Assembly (NCBI GenBank): GCA_001941225.1
Contig: MSHM01000040.1
Location: forward strand, 1-64,000
Direction of reading: 5' to 3'
Length of the DNA stretch: 64,000 nucleotides
Origin: Oscillospiraceae bacterium Zagget12
GTDB taxonomy: Bacteria > Bacillota > Clostridia > UBA1381
Positions 13,839 to 37,178 of this stretch are shown here, in pieces (positions within the stretch are counted from its first letter, which is position 1; every line of letters begins with the position of its first letter). The position numbers and the translations under genes are program-made. Under the pieces are notes generated by a model. That model saw only the letters and a list, made by a program, of their open reading frames with translations, did no database searches and was not told the DNA's origin.

Positions 13839-16292
13839 ATGAAAAAGATAATTTCTATTATACTGACAGCCGTGATGCTGATAGCAGCCGTTCCGGTAAT
13901 GGCAGATTGGGACAATGACGAGGATATAATGTCACTGCTGTCGGAATTAAATATAATGGTCGGCGACAGCGACGGAAATCTGCGCTTGGACGATTACGTT
14001 TCCAGAGCGGAATTCGCAAAAATCGCGGTAGCGTCGTCAAGCTACAAAAACACCGTAGCGTCGGGACTTAAGGTATCGCCGTTTAAAGACGTTACCTATA
14101 GTCACTGGTCGGCTGCGTATGTAAAGGCGGCTGTTTCTGCGGGAATTGTTTCCGGATACCTTGACGGAACATTTAAACCCGATAACAGTGTTTCCTATGA
14201 GGAAGCAATTACAATGATACTTAAGGTATTGGGATACACCGATGATGATTTCGGAGTTTCCTATCCTTACGGACAAATAGGTCTTGCGGAAAATCTTGAG
14301 CTTACAAAGAATGTGGACGCGGTTCAGGGCGAGGCGCTTACAAGACGTCAAGTGGCAAACCTTGTATATAACGCGCTAAACACCAAAATGAAGGATTCCT
14401 CGAGTAAGCTTATCACCATTTTCGACTGCGAGGTTATAGAGGGCGTTACGATTATAGCGTCGCATAACGAGGACAGCTCGCTCGGAACCGATAAGATATA
14501 CACAACTGCGGGAACATATGAGTTTAACGATAATTTCGACAGCGATTATGTCGGCAGACGCGGAGATATAGTTATAAAGAACGGCGATGATTTCGTTTCG
14601 TTCACACCGCGCGACCAAACGGTGGAGGAATACACGGTTACAAACGTAATCGGTTCGGATACAATCCTTGACGGAGATATGTACGATATAAACTCAAACA
14701 CTACCGTTTACTATAAGTCAAGCACGCTTACATACGAATCGGCGGCGTCGGAGGCGTCTGCGGGAGATACGTTCAAGCTGTTCAAGAATTCAAGCGGCAG
14801 CGTTGATTACTGTATGCTGATTGCGCAGTCGTCGCAGCTTACAACGTCGGATTCCGTTAAGAAATATATCATCTATTCACTGCTTTCGGACGCTGTTATA
14901 TGCTATAATAACGGCAGCTTTGAACAGATAAATATTACGGACGGAACAACCTGCTATAAGGACAGCACAAAGAGCACATACGGCTCCGTAAAGAGCAGTA
15001 TGGCAATGGGCGATATACTTTACGTAAAGATGAACGGCAGCAGCATCGACTATGTAAGCTATGAAGAGGGCAATATGGAAGGTCCTATCAGAGTTACAAG
15101 CTCAAGCTGGTTGTCTAACTTCACAACCAACGGTTCAACCGCTATAATGCGCAACGGTACAAAGGTAACATCATCGGATATTCAGACGAATGATATTATC
15201 TATTACAGCGAGGATCTGAATATGATACTTGCTTACACGGATAAGGTAACGGGTATTTATGAAAAGGCATCGCCCACAAAGGATTCGCCGACAACAATTA
15301 CCGTTTCAGGCACAGAGTATACAATAGAGAGCGTAGAGGCGTTCAACGCGCTGTCATCAAGCGGCGACATCGCTTACGGCGATACGGTAACTCTCCTGCT
15401 CGGCAGAACCGGCGAGGTAGCGGGCGTAATAAGCGGAAACGACACAAGCATCACCGCCACCGGATTTGTTATCGAAACGGGTAAAAAGGACTTCTCCAAC
15501 TCGGACGGAACGACATATTCAAGCTATTACGTAAGGCTTGTCACACCTGACGGAACCGAGAACGAATACACAACAAGCTCCGATTGCAGCTCGCTTAAAT
15601 GCGCCGTTGTACGCGTAACCTTTAAAGACGGAAAAGCAAACCTGTCAAAACAAACAGGATATAATTCCGTATCGGGCAAGGTAAGCTATTCAAAGGGTAC
15701 AATAGGCAGTACGGAGCTGGCTGACGACGTTAATATTCTTGACACCGTCGGCACATACAGCGATGATGTTGCGATGTATTCCAAGATTTACACCCAAAGA
15801 ATCGACGGCGTAACAATAAGCACATCAAGCGTATTGTATTATTCAATGAATACAGCCGGCGAGATTGACGAGCTTATACTCAGAGATGTAACGGGCGACT
15901 CTTATGATTACGGTCTTGTTCTGAAAGCCGACACGACAAATAAGTCGTACACCATAGATATAGACGGCTCGCAGAGCACATACACAACGTCCTTCTCGAC
16001 AAGCACCACGGGACCGTATAAATTCAGAATGGACAGCTCGGGAATTGATTATATGATAGCGCTTACGCAACATTCAAGCAATATAAGCGAGCTTACCACC
16101 ACAACGGCTACAATATCAAAGCAGGAGTATCTTTTGAGCGATAAGGTTGTTGTATATGAAAAGACGGGAGTCAGCTCATATATGAAGATAAGCCTTAACG
16201 ACGCAATAAACGGAGATTACAGTAAGCTTACCGCGTATTACGATAAGGCTCAGACCTCCGGAGGAAGAATCCGTGTTATAATAGCTCAGTAA
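13839..16292 (+). CDS. SLH-domain surface protein in the exporter operon
   Basis: An 817-residue exported protein. The ATG at 13839 gives a compact signal peptide (MKKIISIILTAVML, cleaved near residue 22) and correct spacing from GGAAGG; an ATG at 13833 is too close to it. Residues 30-180 carry S-layer homology repeats, seen as DYVSRAEFAKIAV, FKDVTYSHWSAAYVKAAVSAGIVSG and GEALTRRQVANLVYNAL, which anchor proteins to pyruvylated wall polymers. The rest is beta-rich, Ser/Thr-rich and unassigned. The gene begins only 18 bases after the permease, so it is probably co-transcribed with the exporter. Confidence 0.85.
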   Translation: MKKIISIILTAVMLIAAVPVMADWDNDEDIMSLLSELNIMVGDSDGNLRLDDYVSRAEFAKIAVASSSYKNTVASGLKVSPFKDVTYSHWSAAYVKAAVSAGIVSGYLDGTFKPDNSVSYEEAITMILKVLGYTDDDFGVSYPYGQIGLAENLELTKNVDAVQGEALTRRQVANLVYNALNTKMKDSSSKLITIFDCEVIEGVTIIASHNEDSSLGTDKIYTTAGTYEFNDNFDSDYVGRRGDIVIKNGDDFVSFTPRDQTVEEYTVTNVIGSDTILDGDMYDINSNTTVYYKSSTLTYESAASEASAGDTFKLFKNSSGSVDYCMLIAQSSQLTTSDSVKKYIIYSLLSDAVICYNNGSFEQINITDGTTCYKDSTKSTYGSVKSSMAMGDILYVKMNGSSIDYVSYEEGNMEGPIRVTSSSWLSNFTTNGSTAIMRNGTKVTSSDIQTNDIIYYSEDLNMILAYTDKVTGIYEKASPTKDSPTTITVSGTEYTIESVEAFNALSSSGDIAYGDTVTLLLGRTGEVAGVISGNDTSITATGFVIETGKKDFSNSDGTTYSSYYVRLVTPDGTENEYTTSSDCSSLKCAVVRVTFKDGKANLSKQTGYNSVSGKVSYSKGTIGSTELADDVNILDTVGTYSDDVAMYSKIYTQRIDGVTISTSSVLYYSMNTAGEIDELILRDVTGDSYDYGLVLKADTTNKSYTIDIDGSQSTYTTSFSTSTTGPYKFRMDSSGIDYMIALTQHSSNISELTTTTATISKQEYLLSDKVVVYEKTGVSSYMKISLNDAINGDYSKLTAYYDKAQTSGGRIRVIIAQ

Positions 16293-16296
16293 ATTC

Positions 16297-16330
16297 AAAA
16301 AAGGCGTTCACATCTGTGAGCGCCTTTTTT
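16297..16330 (+). terminator. Terminator of the exporter-SLH operon
   Basis: AAAAAAGGCGTTCACA and TGTGAGCGCCTTTTTT form a long stem with a T-tract, starting four bases after the stop codon. Confidence 0.92.
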
Positions 16331-26538: not shown

Positions 26539-26567
26539 TTGACAAACTTTTTTTACTATGCTACAAT
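26539..26567 (+). promoter_or_regulatory. Strong sigma-A promoter of glnA
   Basis: TTGACA and TACAAT are exactly 17 bases apart. Transcription should start near 26574, directly at the attenuator. Confidence 0.85.
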
Positions 26568-26571
26568 AAAA

Positions 26572-26614
26572 AGGAGCAAAGGTGTTTCTTCCGTAGGGAT
26601 AGGAGCGCCTTTTT
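26572..26614 (+). promoter_or_regulatory. glnA leader attenuator with candidate ANTAR hairpin
   Basis: The leader can fold in two exclusive ways. One is a small hairpin (26572-26590) with hexaloop AAGGTG, carrying the A1 and G4 that ANTAR proteins recognise; its stem pairs AGGAG-A with T-TTCTT around one bulged C. The other is a terminator in which AAAGGTGTTTCT pairs with AGGAGCGCCTTT over 12 base pairs including G-U, followed by a T-run. The hexaloop bases form the terminator's 5' arm. The predicted start lies at the edge of the small hairpin, so its first pairs are uncertain. Readthrough would favour glnA expression. Confidence 0.6.
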
Positions 26615-26656: not shown

Positions 26657-27985
26657 ATGCTGACAAAACAGGATATTTTTGATTTGGTTGAAGAAGAGGA
26701 CGTAAGGTTTATACGTCTGCAATTTACGGATATGCTCGGAGCTATGCGGAATATGGCAGTCACAACGTCAAAGCTTGAGGACGCGCTGAATAATTTGTGT
26801 ATGTTTGACGGCTCGTCGATAAAGGGATTTGTAAGCGTTGAGGAAGGCGACCTTTATCTGCACCCCGACCTTGATACATTTTCGATTTTTCCGTGGAGAC
26901 CGCATCAGGGCAAGGTTGCAAGGCTTATATGCGACGTGTACACGCCCGACGGCAGACGTTTGGAAAGCGACCCGAGATATATTCTGCAAAACGCCGTAAA
27001 AGAGGCGGAGGAAATGGGCTACAGCTTTGAAGTCGGACCCGAATGTGAGTTCTTTCTGTTTAATACGGACGAAAGAGGAAATCCCACCGTGGAGCCGCAT
27101 GACAACGCGGGATATTTTGACCTTGCCCCGCTGGATAACGGCGAAAACTGCCGCCGTGAAATATGCCTTACCCTTGAGGAAATGGGATATAAGGTTGAGG
27201 CGTCGCACCACGAAATGGCGCCGGGACAGCACGAAATCACGTTCAGATATGACGACGCGCTAAAGACGGCGGACAGAATAGTAACCTTCAGAACGGTTGT
27301 AAAAACAATCGCGAAAAGGAACGGACTTCACGCCACGTTTATGCCAAAGCCTATGGCGGGCGTAAGCGGCAGCGGAATGCACCTCACAATGTCCCTAAAA
27401 AAGGACGGCAAAAATGTTTTCTATAATGAAAGCGACCCTGCAAAGCTTTCGGATACCGCGGCTAAATTTGCGGCGGGACTGCTTAAATATACGCCGGATA
27501 TGGCGTGCTTTACCAATCCCACGGTAAACTCATATAAGCGTTTCACGCCCGGATATGAGGCGCCGTGCTATATATCGTGGTCGGAAAGCAACAGGAGTCT
27601 GCTTTTGAGAGTGCCGTCCGTTAAGGACGGTCAGGACGCGCGCATAGAGCTGCGCTCACCCGACCCGACGGCAAATCCGTATCTTGCGCTGGCGGCGTGC
27701 CTCAAAGCCGGACTTAGGGGCATAAAGGACAACGAACAGCTGCCGCCGAGCATAGATGTGAATATATACAGTCTTTCAGACAAGGAGAGAGAATCTCTGG
27801 GAATAAAGAGTCTTCCGATAAGTCTTAACGAGGCAATAAAAATTGCAAGAAAATCGGATTTTGTAAAAGAGCTTTTGGGAGAAAAATTCGCCGCAAGTTA
27901 TTTTGAATCAAAAGAACAGGAATATGGAGAGTATCGTCAGACTATAAATCAATGGGAGATTGAAAAATATTTGATAGCTTATTAA
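26657..27985 (+). CDS. glnA: Glutamine synthetase type I
   Basis: A 442-residue GSI-alpha-type enzyme that makes glutamine from glutamate, ammonia and ATP. Conserved parts are visible: CMFDGSSIKGF near residue 53, the metal ligands in EVGPECEFFLF, the ASHHEMAPGQHEI block, HATFMPKPMAGVSGSGMH, and the ARIELRSPDPTANPYLA segment. The Tyr adenylylation loop of GSI-beta enzymes is absent, as expected for Bacillota. The start at 26657 has AAAGGA nine bases upstream. It is followed 27 bases later by the ANTAR regulator gene and is controlled by the leader attenuator. Confidence 0.97.
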   Translation: MLTKQDIFDLVEEEDVRFIRLQFTDMLGAMRNMAVTTSKLEDALNNLCMFDGSSIKGFVSVEEGDLYLHPDLDTFSIFPWRPHQGKVARLICDVYTPDGRRLESDPRYILQNAVKEAEEMGYSFEVGPECEFFLFNTDERGNPTVEPHDNAGYFDLAPLDNGENCRREICLTLEEMGYKVEASHHEMAPGQHEITFRYDDALKTADRIVTFRTVVKTIAKRNGLHATFMPKPMAGVSGSGMHLTMSLKKDGKNVFYNESDPAKLSDTAAKFAAGLLKYTPDMACFTNPTVNSYKRFTPGYEAPCYISWSESNRSLLLRVPSVKDGQDARIELRSPDPTANPYLALAACLKAGLRGIKDNEQLPPSIDVNIYSLSDKERESLGIKSLPISLNEAIKIARKSDFVKELLGEKFAASYFESKEQEYGEYRQTINQWEIEKYLIAY

Positions 27986-28012: not shown

Positions 28013-28537
28013 GTGGAGCGAGTAGTACTGGCATTTTCAAAAGACGCAACGGCTGATAAAATAAAAATGATGCTTGACGGCAGCGGCTATGATGTTTATA
28101 CGGTTTGCCACTCCAAGGCGGAATTGCTGCGTTCCATAGCGGATATTGACGAGGTGCTTGTAATTATGGGTTATAAGCTGCCCGACGGTGTCGCGGACGA
28201 CGTTTTTGACGACCTGCGGGAGGGTCAAAAGCTGATGAGCATAGTCAAAGCCGACAGGCAAAACGAAATATATAATGAGGATATTTTCGTTGTTACTCTT
28301 CCCGTAAACAGGCAGACTATGATAAATTCCATAGAAACCTTTGTCGGAATTATAGAACGCAGAAAGCACAGAGTAAAGCGGACGCCGGAGGAGGAGAAAA
28401 TCATAAACGACGCGAAAGCGTATCTTATGGAAAACCATATGATGACCGAGGAGCAGGCGCATCGTTTTATACAAAAACGCAGTATGGACATAGGCGCCAA
28501 ATTTATCGATACGGCAAGAGCGATATTAAATATTTAA
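28013..28537 (+). CDS. ANTAR-domain response-regulator-like antiterminator
   Basis: A 174-residue protein with a degenerate receiver-like N-terminal domain (about residues 1-95) and a C-terminal ANTAR domain (about 115-172). The ANTAR pattern is clear: EEEKIINDAKAYLMENHMMTEEQAHRFIQ, followed by a helix with RSMDIGAKFIDTARAIL. ANTAR proteins bind hairpins with an A1/G4 hexaloop and prevent terminator formation. The start is a GTG with AAGGAGGGGG upstream. Its place after glnA, and the matching leaders before glnA and gltB, make it the likely nitrogen antiterminator. The receiver lacks a typical acidic phosphorylation pocket, so activation may be phosphorylation-independent. Confidence 0.88.
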   Translation: MERVVLAFSKDATADKIKMMLDGSGYDVYTVCHSKAELLRSIADIDEVLVIMGYKLPDGVADDVFDDLREGQKLMSIVKADRQNEIYNEDIFVVTLPVNRQTMINSIETFVGIIERRKHRVKRTPEEEKIINDAKAYLMENHMMTEEQAHRFIQKRSMDIGAKFIDTARAILNI

Positions 28538-28567: not shown

Positions 28568-29410
28568 ATGCAGACATTTAAATTTTCAAAAATGCACGGA
28601 GCGGGAAACGATTATATATACGTAAACTGCTTTGAGGAAAAGGTTGAGGATATAAACGCCACAGCGAAGGCTGTCAGCGACAGGCATTTCGGAATAGGCT
28701 CGGACGGACTTGTGCTTATATGCCCGTCGGACAAAGCGGATTTCAGAATGGATATGTATAACAGCGACGGCTCACAGGCGGAAATGTGCGGAAACGCCAC
28801 GCGGTGCGTGGGTAAGTACGTCTATGACAGAGGTCTTACGGACAAAACGCAAATTACGCTTGAAACGCTTGCGGGAATTAAGGTTCTCGACCTTAACGTA
28901 AAGGACGGCGAGGTTGAAACGGTATGCGTGAATATGGGAAGTCCGGAGCTTATTCCGAAAAATATTCCCATCGATTCCGAGCTTGACCGTTTTATAAGCG
29001 AGGACGTGGAGGTTCAAGGCAAAACGTACAAGGTAACGGGCGTGTCGATGGGAAATCCGCACGCGGTCACGTTTATCGACGATACCGACAGTCTTGAGAT
29101 AGAAAAGCTCGGTCCCGACTTTGAAACGCATAAGCTGTTTCCGAGAAAAATCAATACCGAGTTCGCCCAAATTGTTGACAGAAAGACAATAAAAATGCGC
29201 GTATGGGAAAGAGGAGCGGGCGAAACGCTTGCCTGCGGTACCGGCGCCTGCGCGACGCTTGTCGCGGCGAGCCTGAATAATCTTACCGACGACGAGGCGG
29301 ATATTGTACTTCTCGGCGGAACACTTCACATACGCTGGGACAAGACCGAAAACAAGGTATATATGACCGGTCCGGCAAAGTTTGTGTTTGACGGAGTAAT
29401 AACACTGTAA
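28568..29410 (+). CDS. dapF: Diaminopimelate epimerase
   Basis: A 280-residue enzyme that converts LL- to meso-diaminopimelate for lysine and peptidoglycan. The two catalytic cysteines are Cys74 in EMCGNATRC and Cys223 in ETLACGTGAC, and the N-terminal KMHGAGNDYIYV is typical. It precedes dapL, which supplies its substrate, and follows the ANTAR gene by 30 bases, so it may share the glnA transcript. Confidence 0.96.
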   Translation: MQTFKFSKMHGAGNDYIYVNCFEEKVEDINATAKAVSDRHFGIGSDGLVLICPSDKADFRMDMYNSDGSQAEMCGNATRCVGKYVYDRGLTDKTQITLETLAGIKVLDLNVKDGEVETVCVNMGSPELIPKNIPIDSELDRFISEDVEVQGKTYKVTGVSMGNPHAVTFIDDTDSLEIEKLGPDFETHKLFPRKINTEFAQIVDRKTIKMRVWERGAGETLACGTGACATLVAASLNNLTDDEADIVLLGGTLHIRWDKTENKVYMTGPAKFVFDGVITL

Positions 29411-29436
29411 ATTATATTTGAAAGGATAAATGAAAA

Positions 29437-30648
29437 ATGGCAAAAATTAACGACAATTATTTAAAGCTGCCGGGAAGTTATCTGTTCTCGACAATCGCTA
29501 AAAAGGTTGCCGCGTATTCGGCGGCAAATCCCGATAAGAAAGTTATAAAAATGGGTATCGGCGATGTTACAAAGCCGCTTGCGCCCGCCGTTATCGAGGC
29601 TATGCACAAGGCGGTTGACGAAATGGGCACCGCGGAGGGATTTCGCGGCTACGGACCCGAGCAGGGCTATGACTTTTTAAGGGAAAAAATAGTTGAAAAG
29701 GATTATAAGGCAAGGGGCATAGATATTGCCGCCGATGAAATATTCGTTTCCGACGGCGCAAAGTCAGACTGCGGAAATATCGGCGATATTTTCTCCGTTG
29801 ATAATAAGGTAGCCGTATGCGACCCCGTATATCCCGTGTATGTTGACACAAACGCGATGGCGGGCAGAGCCGGCGACTTCATAGGCGAGCGTTGGTCAAA
29901 TCTGTATTATATGCCCTGCACCGAGGAGAACGGCTTTATGCCGCAGCTCCCGACGGAAAAGGTCGATATGATTTATCTTTGCTTTCCCAATAACCCGACG
30001 GGCGTAAGCGCCACAAGGGAACAGCTTAAGCCGTGGGTAGACTACGCTAAGGAAAACGGCGCGGTTATCCTTTACGACAGCGCGTATGAGGCGTTTATAA
30101 CAAATCCCGACGTGCCTCACAGTATATACGAAATCGAGGGCGCGAAAGAGGTTGCCATTGAATTCCGCAGCTTTTCAAAGACTGCCGGATTTACCGGTAC
30201 AAGATGCGCTTACACGGTGGTGCCGCACGAATTAAAGCTTGACGGGGTTGAGCTTAACGGTCTTTGGAACAGACGTCAATGCACAAAGTTCAACGGCGTG
30301 CCGTATATAATTCAAAAGGCTGCGGCGGCTGTTTATTCCGACGAGGGCTATAAGCAGACAAGGGACGCTATTGCGTATTATCTTGAAAACGCGAAGATTA
30401 TCCGCGAGGCGCTCACGGAGGCGGGACTCAGCGTGTACGGCGGCGAAAACGCTCCGTATATCTGGGCAAAAACGCCGAACGGTATGAAGTCTTGGGATTT
30501 CTTTGATAAATTGCTTGAGGAGGCAAATGTGGTAACAACTCCCGGCGCGGGATTCGGACCGAGCGGAGAGGGATATATAAGACTGACAGCGTTCTCTACT
30601 AAGGAAAATACCATAAAAGCAATGGAAAAAATTAAAGCAATTTTGTAA
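29437..30648 (+). CDS. dapL: LL-diaminopimelate aminotransferase
   Basis: A 403-residue class I/II PLP aminotransferase that converts tetrahydrodipicolinate directly to LL-diaminopimelate using glutamate. The N-terminal [10 protein letters not shown] and [17 protein letters not shown], the central [16 protein letters not shown] and the PLP lysine Lys248 in [14 protein letters not shown] are characteristic of DapL. It lies 26 bases after dapF. The enzyme uses the glutamate that GOGAT, encoded next, provides. Confidence 0.95.
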
Positions 30649-30657
30649 AATATACAG

Positions 30658-30686
30658 TAGACAAAACCGAAAATATATGTTATACT
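30658..30686 (+). promoter_or_regulatory. Sigma-A-type promoter of gltBD
   Basis: TAGACA and TATACT are exactly 17 bases apart, only ten bases after the dapL stop codon. The predicted start is near 30693, about 27 bases before the ANTAR-type hairpin. Confidence 0.7.
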
Positions 30687-30719
30687 ATGTTTTAGCGTAA
30701 GATAACAAAATATTTTCGG

Positions 30720-30788
30720 CGAAACAAGGGCGTTTCGGTTGGTACATATTCTCTTTTTGGATATATGTGCTAATTGGAGCGCCTTTTT
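30720..30788 (+). promoter_or_regulatory. gltB leader attenuator with ANTAR hairpin and overlapping terminator
   Basis: CGAAAC and GTTTCG form a perfect 6-bp stem around hexaloop AAGGGC (30720-30737), with the A1 and G4 expected for ANTAR recognition. Starting inside that loop, 30726-30749 can instead pair with 30763-30786 in an uninterrupted 24-bp helix (including G-U pairs) with a 13-base loop, followed by TTTTT: a strong terminator. The structures are mutually exclusive. The terminator's 3' arm GGAGCGCCTTTTT is identical to that of the glnA leader. A second upstream ANTAR hairpin, usual in described targets, is not convincing here. Confidence 0.72.
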
Positions 30789-30816
30789 GGTTATAACGTG
30801 AAAAATAAACTGCGCG

Positions 30817-30873
30817 GTAAGTTGCTATGCAACTTAGCCCAAAGGGCTTGACTGCAAAGCAGTCAACACTTAC
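30817..30873. repeat. 57-bp branched palindromic element before gltB
   Basis: Three perfect hairpins lie back to back: AGTTGC-tat-GCAACT (30820-30834), AGCCC-aaa-GGGCT (30836-30848) and TTGACTGC-aaa-GCAGTCAA (30848-30866). They are enclosed by GTAAGT (30817-30822) and ACTTAC (30868-30873). The shape is cloverleaf-like but does not match a tRNA. It may be a small mobile palindromic element or an mRNA structure; no second full copy was seen in the window. Confidence 0.75.
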
Positions 30874-31011
30874 TATTATTCAAGACTAGGAGTATATTTA
30901 TACGCCGTCGTCTTTCATAACAGCAATCTGCTTGTTTCTTTTCCGCGTTATGATTTGTGCCGCCGCGAGGCGGCGGAATGGCGATTAAAATGAGTGAAAG
31001 GATTGAAGGAA

Positions 31012-34000
31012 ATGGAGTACAACGGATTACCTGAGAAACAGGGTCTTTATGACCCGCAATTTGAGCATGATGCCTGCGGTATAGGCTTTATCGCCAATAT
31101 TAAGGGTAAAACCTCCCATGACATTATAAATCAGGCTATTCAGATTTTAAAAAATCTCGCGCACCGCGGCGGTGTCGGCAGTGAGCCGGATACGGGTGAC
31201 GGCGCGGGTATTCTTATTCAGATGCCTCATACCTTTATGGAAAAGGTATGTAAAAATGAGGACATTAAGCTCCCGAAAAAGGGCGATTACGGCGTAGGTA
31301 TGCTGTTTTTGTCGCCGGACGAGGATACAAGAGCCGAGAGCCTTAAAAAGCTGACCGCGATTATAGACGGCGAGGGTCAAAAGCTTTTGGGAATAAGAGA
31401 GGTTCCCGTTTACGAGGTATGTATCGGCAACAGCGCCCGCGAGGCAATGCCGCATATCGTTCAGGTATTTATCGGCAAAGGCTCGGACAGCCTTGACGCG
31501 GACTCCTTTGAGAGAAAGCTGTATATAATAGGAAAGATAGCGGAAAAGGAGATAAGAAAGAGCGGAATCGATAATTATTTCTATTTCGCGTCGTTGTCCG
31601 CGAGAACGCTTGTTTATAAGGGTATGCTTACGCCCGATCAGGTAAATGAATTTTACCTTGACCTAAAGGACGTTGATATGAAAACCGCAATCGCGCTTGT
31701 TCATTCGCGTTTTTCAACCAACACGTTCCCGTCGTGGGAGAGAGCACACCCGAACAGATATATTATTCATAACGGCGAAATCAACACGATACGCGGCAAT
31801 GAAAACTGGGTTAAGGCAAGGGAAAGAATGTTTGCCACACCCGAATTTGAGGGCGATATGGATAAAATTCTGCCCGTTATCAATGAGGACGGCTCAGACT
31901 CCGCAATGCTCGACAATTATCTTCAATTCCTGCACCTGTCGGGATTTTCTCTGCCGAGAGCGGTTATGATGACCATTCCGGAGCCGTGGGAAAACAATAA
32001 GGATATGGATCCCGCTCTGAAGTCGTTTTACGAGTATCATTCCTGTATCACGGAGCCGTGGGACGGCCCCGCCGCGGTCGCATTCACGGACGGACGTCTT
32101 GTCGGCGCGACTCTTGACAGGAACGGTTTAAGACCGGCGCGTTACTACGTCACTTCTGACGATATGATTATTCTTTCGTCGGAGGTCGGTGTTACCGACA
32201 TCGACAACGCGAAAATTATAAAGAAAGAGCGTCTGCACCCGGGTAAGATGCTCCTTATCGACACGGAACAGGGCAAGATTATTTCCGACGAGGAGATAAA
32301 GAAAGAGGAGGCACTCCATAAGCCGTATGCGGAATGGGTAAAAAAGACGCTTGTAGAGCTTGACGACCTCCCCGCGGACACCGGAAAAACGGGCGACACC
32401 TGGCACGACCTTGTGCGCCGTCTTAAGGATAACGCAAAGGGCAATGTGAACGAGCATCTTCTATTGAAGAATTTCATCGTTCTTGAAAATATGTTTGTGA
32501 ACCGCGAAAACAGCGAGGATACACTTCCGCTTTTGACGCGCCAAAAGGCGTTCGGATATACCTGGGAGGATATAAACACAACAATTAAAGCGATAGTTGA
32601 AAAGGCTGACGACCCAATCGGCGCAATGGGTACGGATATACCTCTTGCGGTGCTTTCGGAAAAACCGCAGCTTTTGTATAACTACTTCAAGCAGCTTTTC
32701 GCGCAGGTAACGAATCCGCCTATCGACGCAATCCGCGAGCAGATTGTAACCTCAACCTACACGCTTTTCGGCTGCGAGCAGAATTTGCTTACATCATCGG
32801 AGCTTAACTGCCGTAAGGTAAGAGCACTCAGTCCGATACTGACGAACGAGGAGCTTAAAAAGCTGAGAAATATCAACCTTGAGGGATTTAAGTCAATCAC
32901 AATTCCGTCGCTCTTTAACAAAAACCAGGAGAACGATATGGAAACGGCTATGGAAACAATCTTCGAGGCGGCGGACATAGCTATTGAAAACGGATATAAT
33001 ATAATAATACTTTCCGATAAGGGTATAGACAAGGATAAAGCACCGATTCCGGCATTGCTTGTGGCATCGGGACTGCATCATCACCTTATAAGGCGCGGCA
33101 CAAGAATGAAGGTTTCAATCGTTCTTGAATCGGGCGAGCCGAGAGAGGTACATCATTTCGCCTGCCTCATCGGCTACGGCGTAAACGGCGTGAACCCGTA
33201 TATGGCATATGAGGCTATAGAGGAGCTTGTCAATGATAAGCTTGTGGAGTACAGCTATGAGGAGGGTGTAAAGCGTTTCAATAAGGCTTGCACCAAGGGC
33301 ATAGTAAAGGTTATGTCTAAAATGGGTATTTCAACAATTCAGTCGTACCAGGGCGCGCAGATATTCGAGGCGCTCGGCATAGCGCAGAGCGTTGTTGAGA
33401 AGTACTTCACGGGCACAACCACCAGAATAGGCGGTATCGGTCTTGAGCATATTCAAAAAGAGGTGCTTTTGCGCCACGCAGAGGCATTTGATAAGGTAAG
33501 CGGCAAAAAGGCGCTTAAAACAGGCGGCGAGTACAAGTGGAGAGCAAAGGGCGAATATCATATGTTTAACCCCGAGTCAATCTACAAGCTGCAAATGGCG
33601 TGCCGCACAGGCAATTATAAGCTGTATAAGGAATACGCCAAGGAAATGGACGAACACCAGCAGCACCAGTGCACAATCCGCGGTATGCTTGATATAAAGA
33701 CGATAGATAAGCCGATTGCCATAGATAAGGTTGAGAGCGTGGAAAGCATCGTAAAGCGTTTCAAAACGGGCGCGATGTCATACGGCTCGATTTCGCAGGA
33801 GGCTCACGAGTGCCTCGCGGTCGCTATGAACAGGCTCGGCGGTAAGTCGAACAGCGGCGAGGGCGGCGAAAATCCGGAGAGATACATTCTTGACGAAAAC
33901 GGCGACAGCCGCTCGAGCGCGATTAAGCAGGTCGCGTCGGGACGTTTCGGCGTTCATATTCATTACCTTCAGAATGCAAAGGAAATTCAGATAAAAATGG

Positions 34001-35709
34001 CGCAGGGCGCAAAGCCGGGCGAGGGCGGACATTTGCCGGGCGGCAAGGTGTACCCGTGGATTGCAAAGGCAAGACATTCAACGCCGGGCGTGGGACTTAT
34101 CTCACCTCCGCCGCACCATGACATATACTCAATCGAGGATTTGGCTCAGCTTATCCACGACCTCAAAAACGCGAACCGCAACGCGAGAGTTACCGTAAAG
34201 CTCGTTTCCGAGGCGGGCGTCGGCACAATCGCCGTCGGCGTTGCAAAGGGCAGAGCTGACGTTATCCTTGTATCGGGCTATGACGGCGGTACGGGCGCGG
34301 CTCCGAGAACCAGCGTTCGCCACGCGGGACTGCCGTGGGAGCTTGGCGTTGCCGAAACGCATCAGGCGCTTTTGATGAATAATCTCCGTAACAGAGTTGT
34401 TATAGAAACGGACGGTAAGCTTTTGACCGGACGCGATGTCGCGGTCGCGGCGCTTTTGGGCGCGGAGGAATTCGGCTTTGCCACGGGTCCGCTGATTTCG
34501 ATAGGCTGCGTAATGATGAGAGTATGTAACCTTGATACCTGTCCCGTCGGCGTTGCCACGCAGAATCCGAAACTCAGAAAGCGTTTCTGCGGCAGACCGG
34601 AATACGTTGAAAACTTTATGCGCTTTATCGCTCAGGATTTGAGAGAGTGGATGGCAAAAATCGGCGTAAAAACGGTTGACGAGATGATAGGACACGTTGA
34701 AAGACTGAGCCAAAAAACAATCGAGGATAACTGGAAAGCGAAAGAGGTTGACCTGTCGTCACTTCTGTACCAGCCGAAAATCTGTTCGAACGATTATGAG
34801 AGATACCATAACGTGATGCAGGATCACGAGCTTTATAAAACTCTCGATATGAACACATTGCTTAAGCTTTGCGAGCCGGCTATAAGAGGCGGCAAGAAGA
34901 TTGAGGCAAAGCTTGAAATAACAAATATAAACCGTGTAACGGGCACAATACTCTCCTCGGAAATCGCGAGAGAGCACGGCGAAGAGGGACTTCCGGAGGA
35001 CAGCATAAAGCTTTGCTTTGTGGGCAGCGCGGGACAGAGTTTCGGCGCGTTCCTTGCTCCGGGCGTCACAATGAGGCTTGAGGGCGACAGCAACGACTAT
35101 ATCGGAAAGGGACTGTCGGGCGGCAAGATTGTCATTGTTCCTCCGTCGGACGCCGTATTCAATCCGAGCGAAAACGTCATCATAGGCAACGTGGCGTTCT
35201 ACGGCGCGATAAAGGGCGAGGCGTATATACGCGGCACCGCGGGTGAGCGTTTCTGCGTAAGAAACTCCGGTATGACGGCGGTTGTCGAGGGCATCGGCGA
35301 CCACGGCTGCGAGTATATGACCGGCGGCTGCGTCGCGGTAATCGGCAAAACCGGCAGAAACTTTGCCGCGGGTATGTCGGGCGGTATCGCGTATGTCTAC
35401 GATAAGGACGGAAACCTTGAGCGCAGCTGCAACAAGGAGCTTGTATCCCTTGAGGGTATGGAGGATAAGGACGCGGCAAGGCTGAAGGAAATGCTTGAAA
35501 AGCATTTTGAATACACCGCGAGCGACGTTGCGGAGAATATCCTAAACAACTGGGACAGCGAGCTGGGCAGCTTTGTAAAGGTAATTCCGAATGACTATAA
35601 AAAGGTTATAACCGTTCTTGAAGAGGAATTGGAAAAGGGAACGGACAGAGATGAGGCAATGCTGATAGCATTTGAAAATGTAACAGGTAAAAAGGTAGAG
35701 GTAGCGTAA
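31012..35709 (+). CDS. gltB: Glutamate synthase large subunit
   Basis: A 1565-residue alpha subunit of NADPH-GOGAT, which transfers the glutamine amide to 2-oxoglutarate. The class II glutaminase domain begins with Cys22 in [15 protein letters not shown]; a short propeptide is expected to be removed to expose it. The central and FMN domains carry [13 protein letters not shown] and [10 protein letters not shown]. The 3Fe-4S cysteines lie in [15 protein letters not shown]. The C-terminal beta-helix has [21 protein letters not shown]. The ATG at 31012 has AAAGGA ten bases upstream; an in-frame GTG at 30994 lacks one. It pairs with gltD and is preceded by the ANTAR-type attenuator. Confidence 0.96.
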
Positions 35710-35723
35710 GGAGGATTGTAACA

Positions 35724-37178
35724 ATGGGAAAACCAACAGGATTTTTAGAATATAAAAGACAACTTCCCGAGGACAGACCTCCGAAGGAAAGAATGAAGGA
35801 CTGGGACGAGTTCCATACGCATTTCGACCTGAAAACCCTACAACTTCAGGGCGCGAGATGTATGGACTGCGGAGTGCCGTTCTGTCATACGGGTAAGCAG
35901 ATTGGAAGAACATCTATAGGCTGTCCTTTGAATAATCTTATTCCGGAGTGGAATGATTTGGTGTACAGAGGCGATATGGACGAGGCATACAGACGTCTTT
36001 CGCTCACAAACAACTTTCCGGAATTTACGGGCAGAGTTTGTCCGGCGTTATGCGAGGGCTCATGCACGCTTGGTATGCACGACCCCGCGGTGACTATAAA
36101 GAATATCGAGTGTCACATTATAGATACTATGTTCGAGGAGGGCAAGGTAAAGCCGAGAATACCCGAAAAATCGACCGAAAAGCGTGTCGCGGTAGTCGGC
36201 AGCGGACCGGCGGGACTTGCGTGCGCCGACCAGCTCAATCAGATGGGACACAGAGTAACCGTGTTTGAGAGGGCCGACAGAGCCGGCGGACTGCTTATGT
36301 ACGGTATTCCGAATATGAAACTTGACAAAAGGGTTGTACAACGCAGAGTTGAGCTTATGGAAAAAGAGGGAGTTACCTTTAAACTGAACACGGAAATCGG
36401 CAAGAATTATCCGGCTGTAAAGCTGGTAAACGAGTTTGACGCGGTTGTGCTTTGCTGCGGCTCCACAAAGCCGAGAGCGCTTACCGTTGAGGGCGCGGAC
36501 TTAAAGGGTGTGCATTACGCGGTGGATTTCCTCAAGGCGAATACAAAGAGCCTGCTTGACTCAAACCTTGAGGACAGAATGTATATCAATGCCGAGGGCA
36601 AGAATGTCATTGTTGTCGGCGGCGGCGATACGGGTACCGACTGCGTCGGCACGTCTATAAGACACGGCTGCAACAGCGTTACTCAGCTTGAAATAATGCC
36701 GGAGCTTTCCGAGGAAAGACTTCCGAGCAATCCCTGGCCCGAATGGCCGAGAGTTAAAAAGACCGATTACGGTCAGGAGGAGGCAATCGAGCTTTACGGA
36801 CATGACCCGAGAGAATACCTTACCACGGTCACGAAAATCGAGGGTGACGAAAAGGGCAGAGTTAAGGCTGTTCATACGGTAGAGGTTGATTGGTCCACGG
36901 GCTCGCCCGTTCCTGTAAAGGGCACGGAAAAGGTAAGACCATGCGAGCTTGTTCTTATAGCAATGGGATTTTTGGGACCCGAGCAGGAGCTTTTAAACCA
37001 GCTTACGCTTGACACCGACGCGAGAAGTAATATTCACGCGAGCGAGGACGATTATAAAACAAGCCTCAGAGGCGTATTTGCGGCGGGCGACTGCCGCAGA
37101 GGTCAAAGCCTTGTTGTATGGGCAATTCGCGAGGGACGCCGCGCGGCTGACGCGGTTGACGAATTCCTGATGAAGTAA
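35724..37178 (+). CDS. gltD: Glutamate synthase small subunit
   Basis: A 484-residue FAD- and NADPH-binding subunit that feeds electrons to GltB. The N-terminal cysteines for 4Fe-4S clusters are seen in CMDCGVPFC and [12 protein letters not shown]. The FAD motif is [14 protein letters not shown] and the NADPH motif [11 protein letters not shown]. The C-terminal [19 protein letters not shown] closes the FAD site. It starts 14 bases after gltB with AAGGAGG, and a strong terminator follows. Confidence 0.97.

Follow-up and report, generated by a model that had tools for sequence, protein, structure and literature searches.

A one-hexaloop, NitR-type attenuator predicted at the transcription start of glnA and before gltB in Clostridia

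The glnA leader of the window (the whole stretch of 64,000 nucleotides analysed here, from a Clostridia genome of 1.90 Mb that is 77% complete) is probably a protein-controlled transcription attenuator, at which NitR-type antitermination of the glutamine synthetase (GS) and glutamate synthase (GOGAT) genes would operate through a P2 hairpin alone. By default, the first approximately 41 nucleotides of glnA RNA would form an intrinsic terminator and transcription would stop; when nitrogen is limiting, a NitR-like protein, encoded downstream of glnA, would bind a single hexaloop hairpin formed by the nucleotides at the extreme 5' end of the RNA. The terminator could then not form, because the loop and 3' strand of the bound hairpin are its 5' arm, and glnA and nitR would be transcribed. 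Together they would form one regulon with gltB and glnN, which have this hairpin too, and with asnA, asnB, and others, which have it in relatives; P2 would suffice with no P1 upstream. We infer that antitermination is the outcome of binding; the signal would be nitrogen limitation, by analogy with NitR of Clostridium saccharobutylicum, for which antitermination of GS/GOGAT on nitrogen limitation was proposed (as cited in PMC6316151).

The glnA promoter (TTGACA-17-TACAAT, positions 26539-26567 on the forward strand) has 11 of 12 consensus matches and a TG before its -10 box. Folding and covariation define the antiterminator hairpin AGGAGC[AAAGGU]GUUUCU at 26572-26589 (forward strand), with the hexaloop AAAGGU at 26578-26583 and the closing pair C26577-G26584. 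These features agree with the ANTAR loop rule as published (A1, G4, and a C:G top pair; PMC3369931, PMC7496416), and the hairpin overlaps a terminator, as a P2 does. A sequence-only reading of this DNA had rightly described a hexaloop hairpin overlapping a terminator and had its span, 26572-26614, correct, but it gave the loop as AAGGTG, which is off by one and would need a C-T mismatch just below its closing pair. The intrinsic terminator (26578-26614, forward strand; folding, covariation, and a covariance-model match at E 1.8e-9) shares sequence with the hairpin, whose loop and 3' strand make up the terminator 5' arm (beginning at 26578-26580), so that the two structures are mutually exclusive; the terminator 3' arm, GGAGCGCC at 26602-26609, is followed by five T residues (26610-26614). 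The terminator fold reaches -18.8 kcal/mol (z -3.9; none of 200 shuffles was equally stable), and the leader folds as the short hairpin when the 3' arm is removed. Because the hairpin by itself has about -3.6 kcal/mol versus -18.8 kcal/mol for the terminator, termination should be the default and a binder required.

The leader serves glnA, a type I glutamine synthetase gene (26657-27985, forward strand, 442 amino acids; TIGR00653 at 510.6 bits, above cut-off). Directly 3' of it, as the sequence-only reading had it, lies an ANTAR gene (28013-28537, forward strand), the sole one found in this 77%-complete genome, and then dapF and a class I/II aminotransferase gene (28568-30648, forward strand), which are kept between nitR and gltB. 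The gltB promoter (TAGACA-17-TATACT, 30658-30686, forward strand, 10 of 12 consensus matches) is followed by the hairpin CGAAAC[AAGGGC]GUUUCG at 30720-30737 (forward strand; six pairs, A1, G4) and by a terminator overlapping it (30726-30788, forward strand; -34.1 kcal/mol, z -7.1; covariance-model match at E 0.002). Downstream are gltB itself, for the glutamate synthase large subunit (31012-35709, forward strand), and gltD, for the small subunit (35724-37178, forward strand; TIGR01317 at 725.6 bits). The gltB terminator 3' arm, GGAGCGCC at 30776-30783, is identical to that of glnA, as had been claimed: the longer GGAGCGCCTTTTT has exactly two copies in the window, 26602-26614 (glnA) and 30776-30788 (gltB), each preceding its gene. 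At up to two mismatches there are nine matches in the window versus 2.7 expected, a number reached by none of 100 shuffles.

The gltB region has several further peculiarities. Between its attenuator and the gene, at 30793-30951, lies a MITE-like repeat with 18-nucleotide inverted ends (83% complementary); searched against the genome, 30795-30960 matches 22 sites, including its own. A stretch like GATAACAAAATA between promoter and hairpin (30690-30719 in the window) is kept in five species (the window's and those of L034, L036, L037, and L046). In L035 and L051 the gltB terminator loop holds an insert of about 100 nucleotides with inverted repeats, and the hairpin and terminator arms are intact.

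A close NitR is present in 46 of 61 family genomes (the window's own counted), the named relatives being mostly MAGs, including Candidatus Ornithomonoglobus. The gene order glnA-nitR-dapF-aminotransferase-gltB is conserved in the family, and glnA adjoins nitR in 45 of the 46 loci; L064, where it does not, lies at a contig end. Leaders of glnA were readable in 44 loci (L047, too short, and L064, without glnA, were left out), and in every one of them a C[RNNGGY]G motif overlaps an arm of a terminator; 42 show at least seven terminator pairs in an ungapped scan, the terminators of L048 and L049 being bulged. A strict scan (stem of at least four pairs) finds hairpin and overlapping terminator together in 30 of the 44, versus 0.1 expected from Markov shuffles. 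The motif is likewise found in 24 of 32 gltB leaders (rows read by eye, with a chance match in L075 left out).

Both helices covary. The antiterminator alignment comprises 62 glnA and gltB hairpins, and the closing C-G was required by the search pattern; 87.7% of its cells are paired versus 78.3% after shuffling (slid versions of the helix give 39-70%), and 28 cells are changed on both sides versus 12.0 in shuffles, a value that none of 500 shuffles reached. The inner four pairs are kept in 62, 62, 59, and 52 of the 62 hairpins and the fifth in 37. The terminator helix is 95.8% paired, with 35 double changes versus 7.6 in shuffles (again none of 500 reached it), and loop position 3 covaries, within that helix, with the base after CC (A-U, G-C, U-A). 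Because the 5' strand of the hairpin lies outside the terminator, its covariation supports the hairpin independently.

The -10 box of the window's glnA ends at 26567, so the predicted transcription start falls at about 26573-26575, the foot of the hairpin; this agrees with the earlier remark that the hairpin begins almost at the predicted transcript 5' end, an unusual place, and that position is the most interesting part of the sequence-only reading. For an assumed start at 26574, the hairpin ends at nucleotide 16, the terminator 3' arm at nucleotide 36, and the T run at nucleotide 41. The computed hairpin energy varies with the start that is assumed: -3 to -4 kcal/mol for 26572-26573, approximately -0.1 to -0.8 kcal/mol for 26574, and no hairpin from 26575 onward. 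Since any start among 26572-26575 is possible with a -10 box ending at 26567, the glnA hairpin hangs on the exact base; within the window, the reading of glnA is weakest on this point. The promoter geometry recurs in the leaders of relatives. Their -10 box lies 9-17 nucleotides before loop position 1 in 40 of the 44 glnA leaders (L075 taken from the strict scan), mostly at 11-13 nucleotides versus 10 in the window, so the hairpins of relatives gain one to three more bases. The exceptions are L057, L058, and L060 (54-55 nucleotides) and L067 (31 nucleotides, with a poor promoter call); the first three have about 45 nucleotides of extra glnA leader with another stem, whose loop is not A1/G4 and which could be a different recruitment element.

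That 40 of 44 glnA leaders have the motif at their predicted start, and that the hairpin energy varies with the start base, would also be expected if the conserved bases at +1 acted in initiation (start selection, or as the initial transcribed sequence) and the hairpin were incidental. We regard that explanation as very improbable: the motif lies 35-40 nucleotides from the -10 box in several gltB leaders and 36-53 nucleotides from it in several glnN leaders, and these distant gltB and glnN motifs show compensatory pair changes and an overlapping terminator every time.

The attenuator proposed here departs from published ANTAR targets, which are described as P1 plus P2 with a linker of 5-12 nucleotides; loss of P1 or a change of linker is reported to abolish EutV control (PMC3369931), and P1 is called essential for EutV (PMC3369931, PMC8934654). 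At glnA in the window there is no second, upstream hexaloop hairpin at such a linker distance, and in the 40 leaders with the -10 box 9-17 nucleotides before the loop the hairpin is the first RNA nucleotides, so a P1 has no room. An ordinary dual-hairpin target in which the second hexaloop was missed, either as a degenerate upstream P1 or as the apical loop of the terminator, is accordingly an unlikely account. It could draw on the gltB and glnN leaders, which often have 35-55 nucleotides before the hairpin, and on sporadic apical loops with A1 and G4 (L039, UCC[AAAGGG]GGA; the 3' flank of asnA in L123; the minus strand of L143). However, P1-like hairpins (at least three pairs) in 23 longer glnA, gltB, and glnN leaders are at chance level (4 of 23 versus 3.9 by chance), and the apical A1/G4 loop is absent in the window. 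The terminator apex was ruled out as a second ANTAR hairpin, since its A1/G4 loop is not conserved. The window is also without the dual-hairpin motif, none being found on either strand at four pairs and none on the forward strand at three. The same kind of scan found at L329 a textbook P1, 10 nucleotides, and a P2 with an overlapping terminator; L329 is a single positive control, and the scan total over ten loci, 2, is not above shuffles (3.6). Upstream of this dual motif are genes for an ANTAR regulator and a kinase, a pair that we take to be eutVW. A search of eight loci with Rfam at gathering scores returned only a T-box in L329, so that the dual ANTAR motif of L329 is also uncovered by Rfam. 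L123:1398-1450, between asnA and the gene that follows it, holds another hairpin-terminator built like the one before asnA; the apex of its terminator bears an A1/G4 loop as well.

The one-hairpin form extends beyond the family. The strict scan finds it, with no P1, in 13 of 31 Oscillospiraceae-type leaders, and a class-wide sample has it in 11 of 35 leaders, again with no P1, the attenuator being undetected at 24 of the 35 glnA-ANTAR loci of the class. L068 and 8 of the 13 Oscillospiraceae-type leaders have G in place of A at loop position 1; such G1 loops fit with the description of the EutV dimer as contacting a single hexaloop through G4 and not through A1 (PMC8934654).

In the source genome, the covariance model matched, besides glnA, sites at gltB, before glnN (encoding GSIII; L140), before a class-III aminotransferase gene (L141), before a gene for a circularly permuted ATP-grasp protein (L142), and at 16291; these five are individually weak (E 0.001-0.007). 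The sequence-only reading had suggested looking for the motif in the rest of the genome near ammonium transporter and PII genes: no ammonium transporter was found in the 77%-complete genome, and the one PII gene has no model match. The match at 16291-16329 was rejected: it follows a stop codon, has an A-tract and no C-closed hexaloop, and is an ordinary terminator; L149, L151, L152, L158, L160, and L161 are likewise ordinary terminators without a C-closed hexaloop, and L139, L144, L154-L156, and similar matches were set aside as chance or unassigned. The switch precedes glnN in 12 of 37 family genomes searched, and in relatives it also stands before asnA (L123), asnB (L150), the gene of an amino-acid ABC binding protein (L131), and, in L143 and L159, a GATase-2 gene that resembles the one for the GOGAT amidotransferase subunit. 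Among 40 fetched model matches, chosen mainly away from glnA, 25 have a C[ANNGNN]G hairpin with at least four pairs. Eighteen of these 25 precede genes for glutamine, glutamate, asparagine, or amino-acid uptake; the remaining seven are four before ATP-grasp or aminotransferase genes and three unassigned.

A different reader of the hairpin, whether a small ligand or another RNA-binding protein, or a constitutive terminator that lowers expression, would make the ANTAR gene a bystander. In favour of such readings, the terminator by itself explains part of the conservation of the GG and A-tract bases in the loop, but we consider them improbable. The 5' strand of the hairpin covaries although it lies outside the terminator; both the loop and the pair that closes it obey the ANTAR rule; the glnA-ANTAR gene linkage extends across many families of the class; and the hairpin is absent from all four of the 40 fetched matches that come from genomes without a detected ANTAR gene. 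No Rfam family matches the leaders: a search of window positions 12-40 kb at E up to 10 gave three matches, each weak, attributable to chance, and located away from the leaders.

The proposed reader of the hairpin, for which the NitR-like product is the presumed binder, is a protein of 174 amino acids (28013-28537) with a pseudo-receiver and a C-terminal ANTAR domain (PF03861, E 1.3e-13; 51.0 bits versus a cut-off of 27.3). Its predicted receiver fold (pLDDT 86) has Rv1626 and EutV as best structure matches, followed by AmiR. The phospho-Asp position is not Asp in any of the 20 NitR-like rows of the alignment (VIMGYKLPD in the window; ADADLPG at the Asp column in L077), so phosphorylation at that position cannot be the NitR signal; judged from sequence, the NitR-like receiver is a pseudo-receiver, as in AmiR. 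Sensing would then presumably rely on another protein that partners the pseudo-receiver, in the way that AmiC serves AmiR. Judged by spacing from the conserved Met, His150 of NitR appears to take the place of the EutV residue that stacks on G4, Tyr164. The earlier suggestion that one RNA-binding protein could switch GS and GOGAT together thus remains the best reading of these leaders, given the same hairpin and terminator at both, the sole ANTAR gene found adjoining glnA, the family-wide conservation, and the regulon.

Control of nitrogen genes by ANTAR proteins, glutamine synthetase genes included, is already on record (PMC3369931, PMC3369936), and the same antitermination has been suggested for C. 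thermocellum (PMC4676874). The linkage of glnA and GOGAT genes to an ANTAR gene is seen here. Work by Stutz in 2007 reportedly tied NitR of C. saccharobutylicum to glnA and the GOGAT genes, and in this the two systems are alike; the present analysis defines an RNA element with its single hexaloop and its start-site position, and a regulon that reaches glnN, asnA, and asnB. EutV leaders of Enterococcus faecalis share the A1/G4 hexaloop, the C-G top pair, and a loop and 3' strand that are the terminator 5' arm (PMC3369931, PMC8934654), but EutV is described as using P1 and P2 with a set linker and as activated by phosphorylation, whereas the system described here has no P1 and a receiver without the phospho-Asp. 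NasR at the Klebsiella nasF leader follows the same loop rule and is reported to bind a single P2 weakly, at 12 versus 1 uM; it differs in having two hairpins and a NIT sensor domain (PMC7496416). AmiR of Pseudomonas aeruginosa likewise combines a pseudo-receiver with ANTAR and is described as controlled by a partner, not by phosphate (PMC3369931, PMC3369936); it differs in the two hairpins of the amiE leader and in its partner AmiC. The glnA switch would work like an ANTAR attenuator yet lacks the two-hairpin feature. In the literature searched (mostly open-access papers) we found no description of single-hexaloop ANTAR attenuators on glnA; GS/GOGAT antitermination by NitR is known in outline, and the single-hexaloop, transcription-start form and its regulon were not found in print.

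We lean slightly toward a broader view, in which many Clostridia run a nitrogen-assimilation regulon by natural one-hexaloop ANTAR attenuators, the glnA antiterminator is the first approximately 16 nucleotides, NitR works without a recruitment hairpin, and start choice is a second input. With an antiterminator that short, NitR would have only about 10-20 nucleotides of synthesis in which to act, and a choice of start site by one or two bases would decide whether the glnA switch can be thrown. The authors of PMC8934654 asked why there are two hexaloops, proposed that P1 recruits the protein in time, and suggested that sites with a single hexaloop might occur where no transcribing polymerase sets a time limit, calling for work on them; conserved one-hexaloop attenuators at the transcript start would answer that question with termination control by P2 alone. 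For the control of GS/GOGAT in gut Clostridia they would also provide a regulon and an element that is short and testable, and search models that require two hairpins would miss them.

Fifteen family genomes are without the close NitR. Ten of them are devoid of ANTAR genes, and this glnA is missing from nine of the ten; the other six of the 15 keep this glnA, five with a different ANTAR gene and the sixth (G047) with glnA near a contig end. In L242 and L243, which have a second type of glnA and a different ANTAR gene, the ribosome-binding site, immediately ahead of the start codon, is overlapped by a motif-like AAAAGGG stretch, which perhaps serves translational control.
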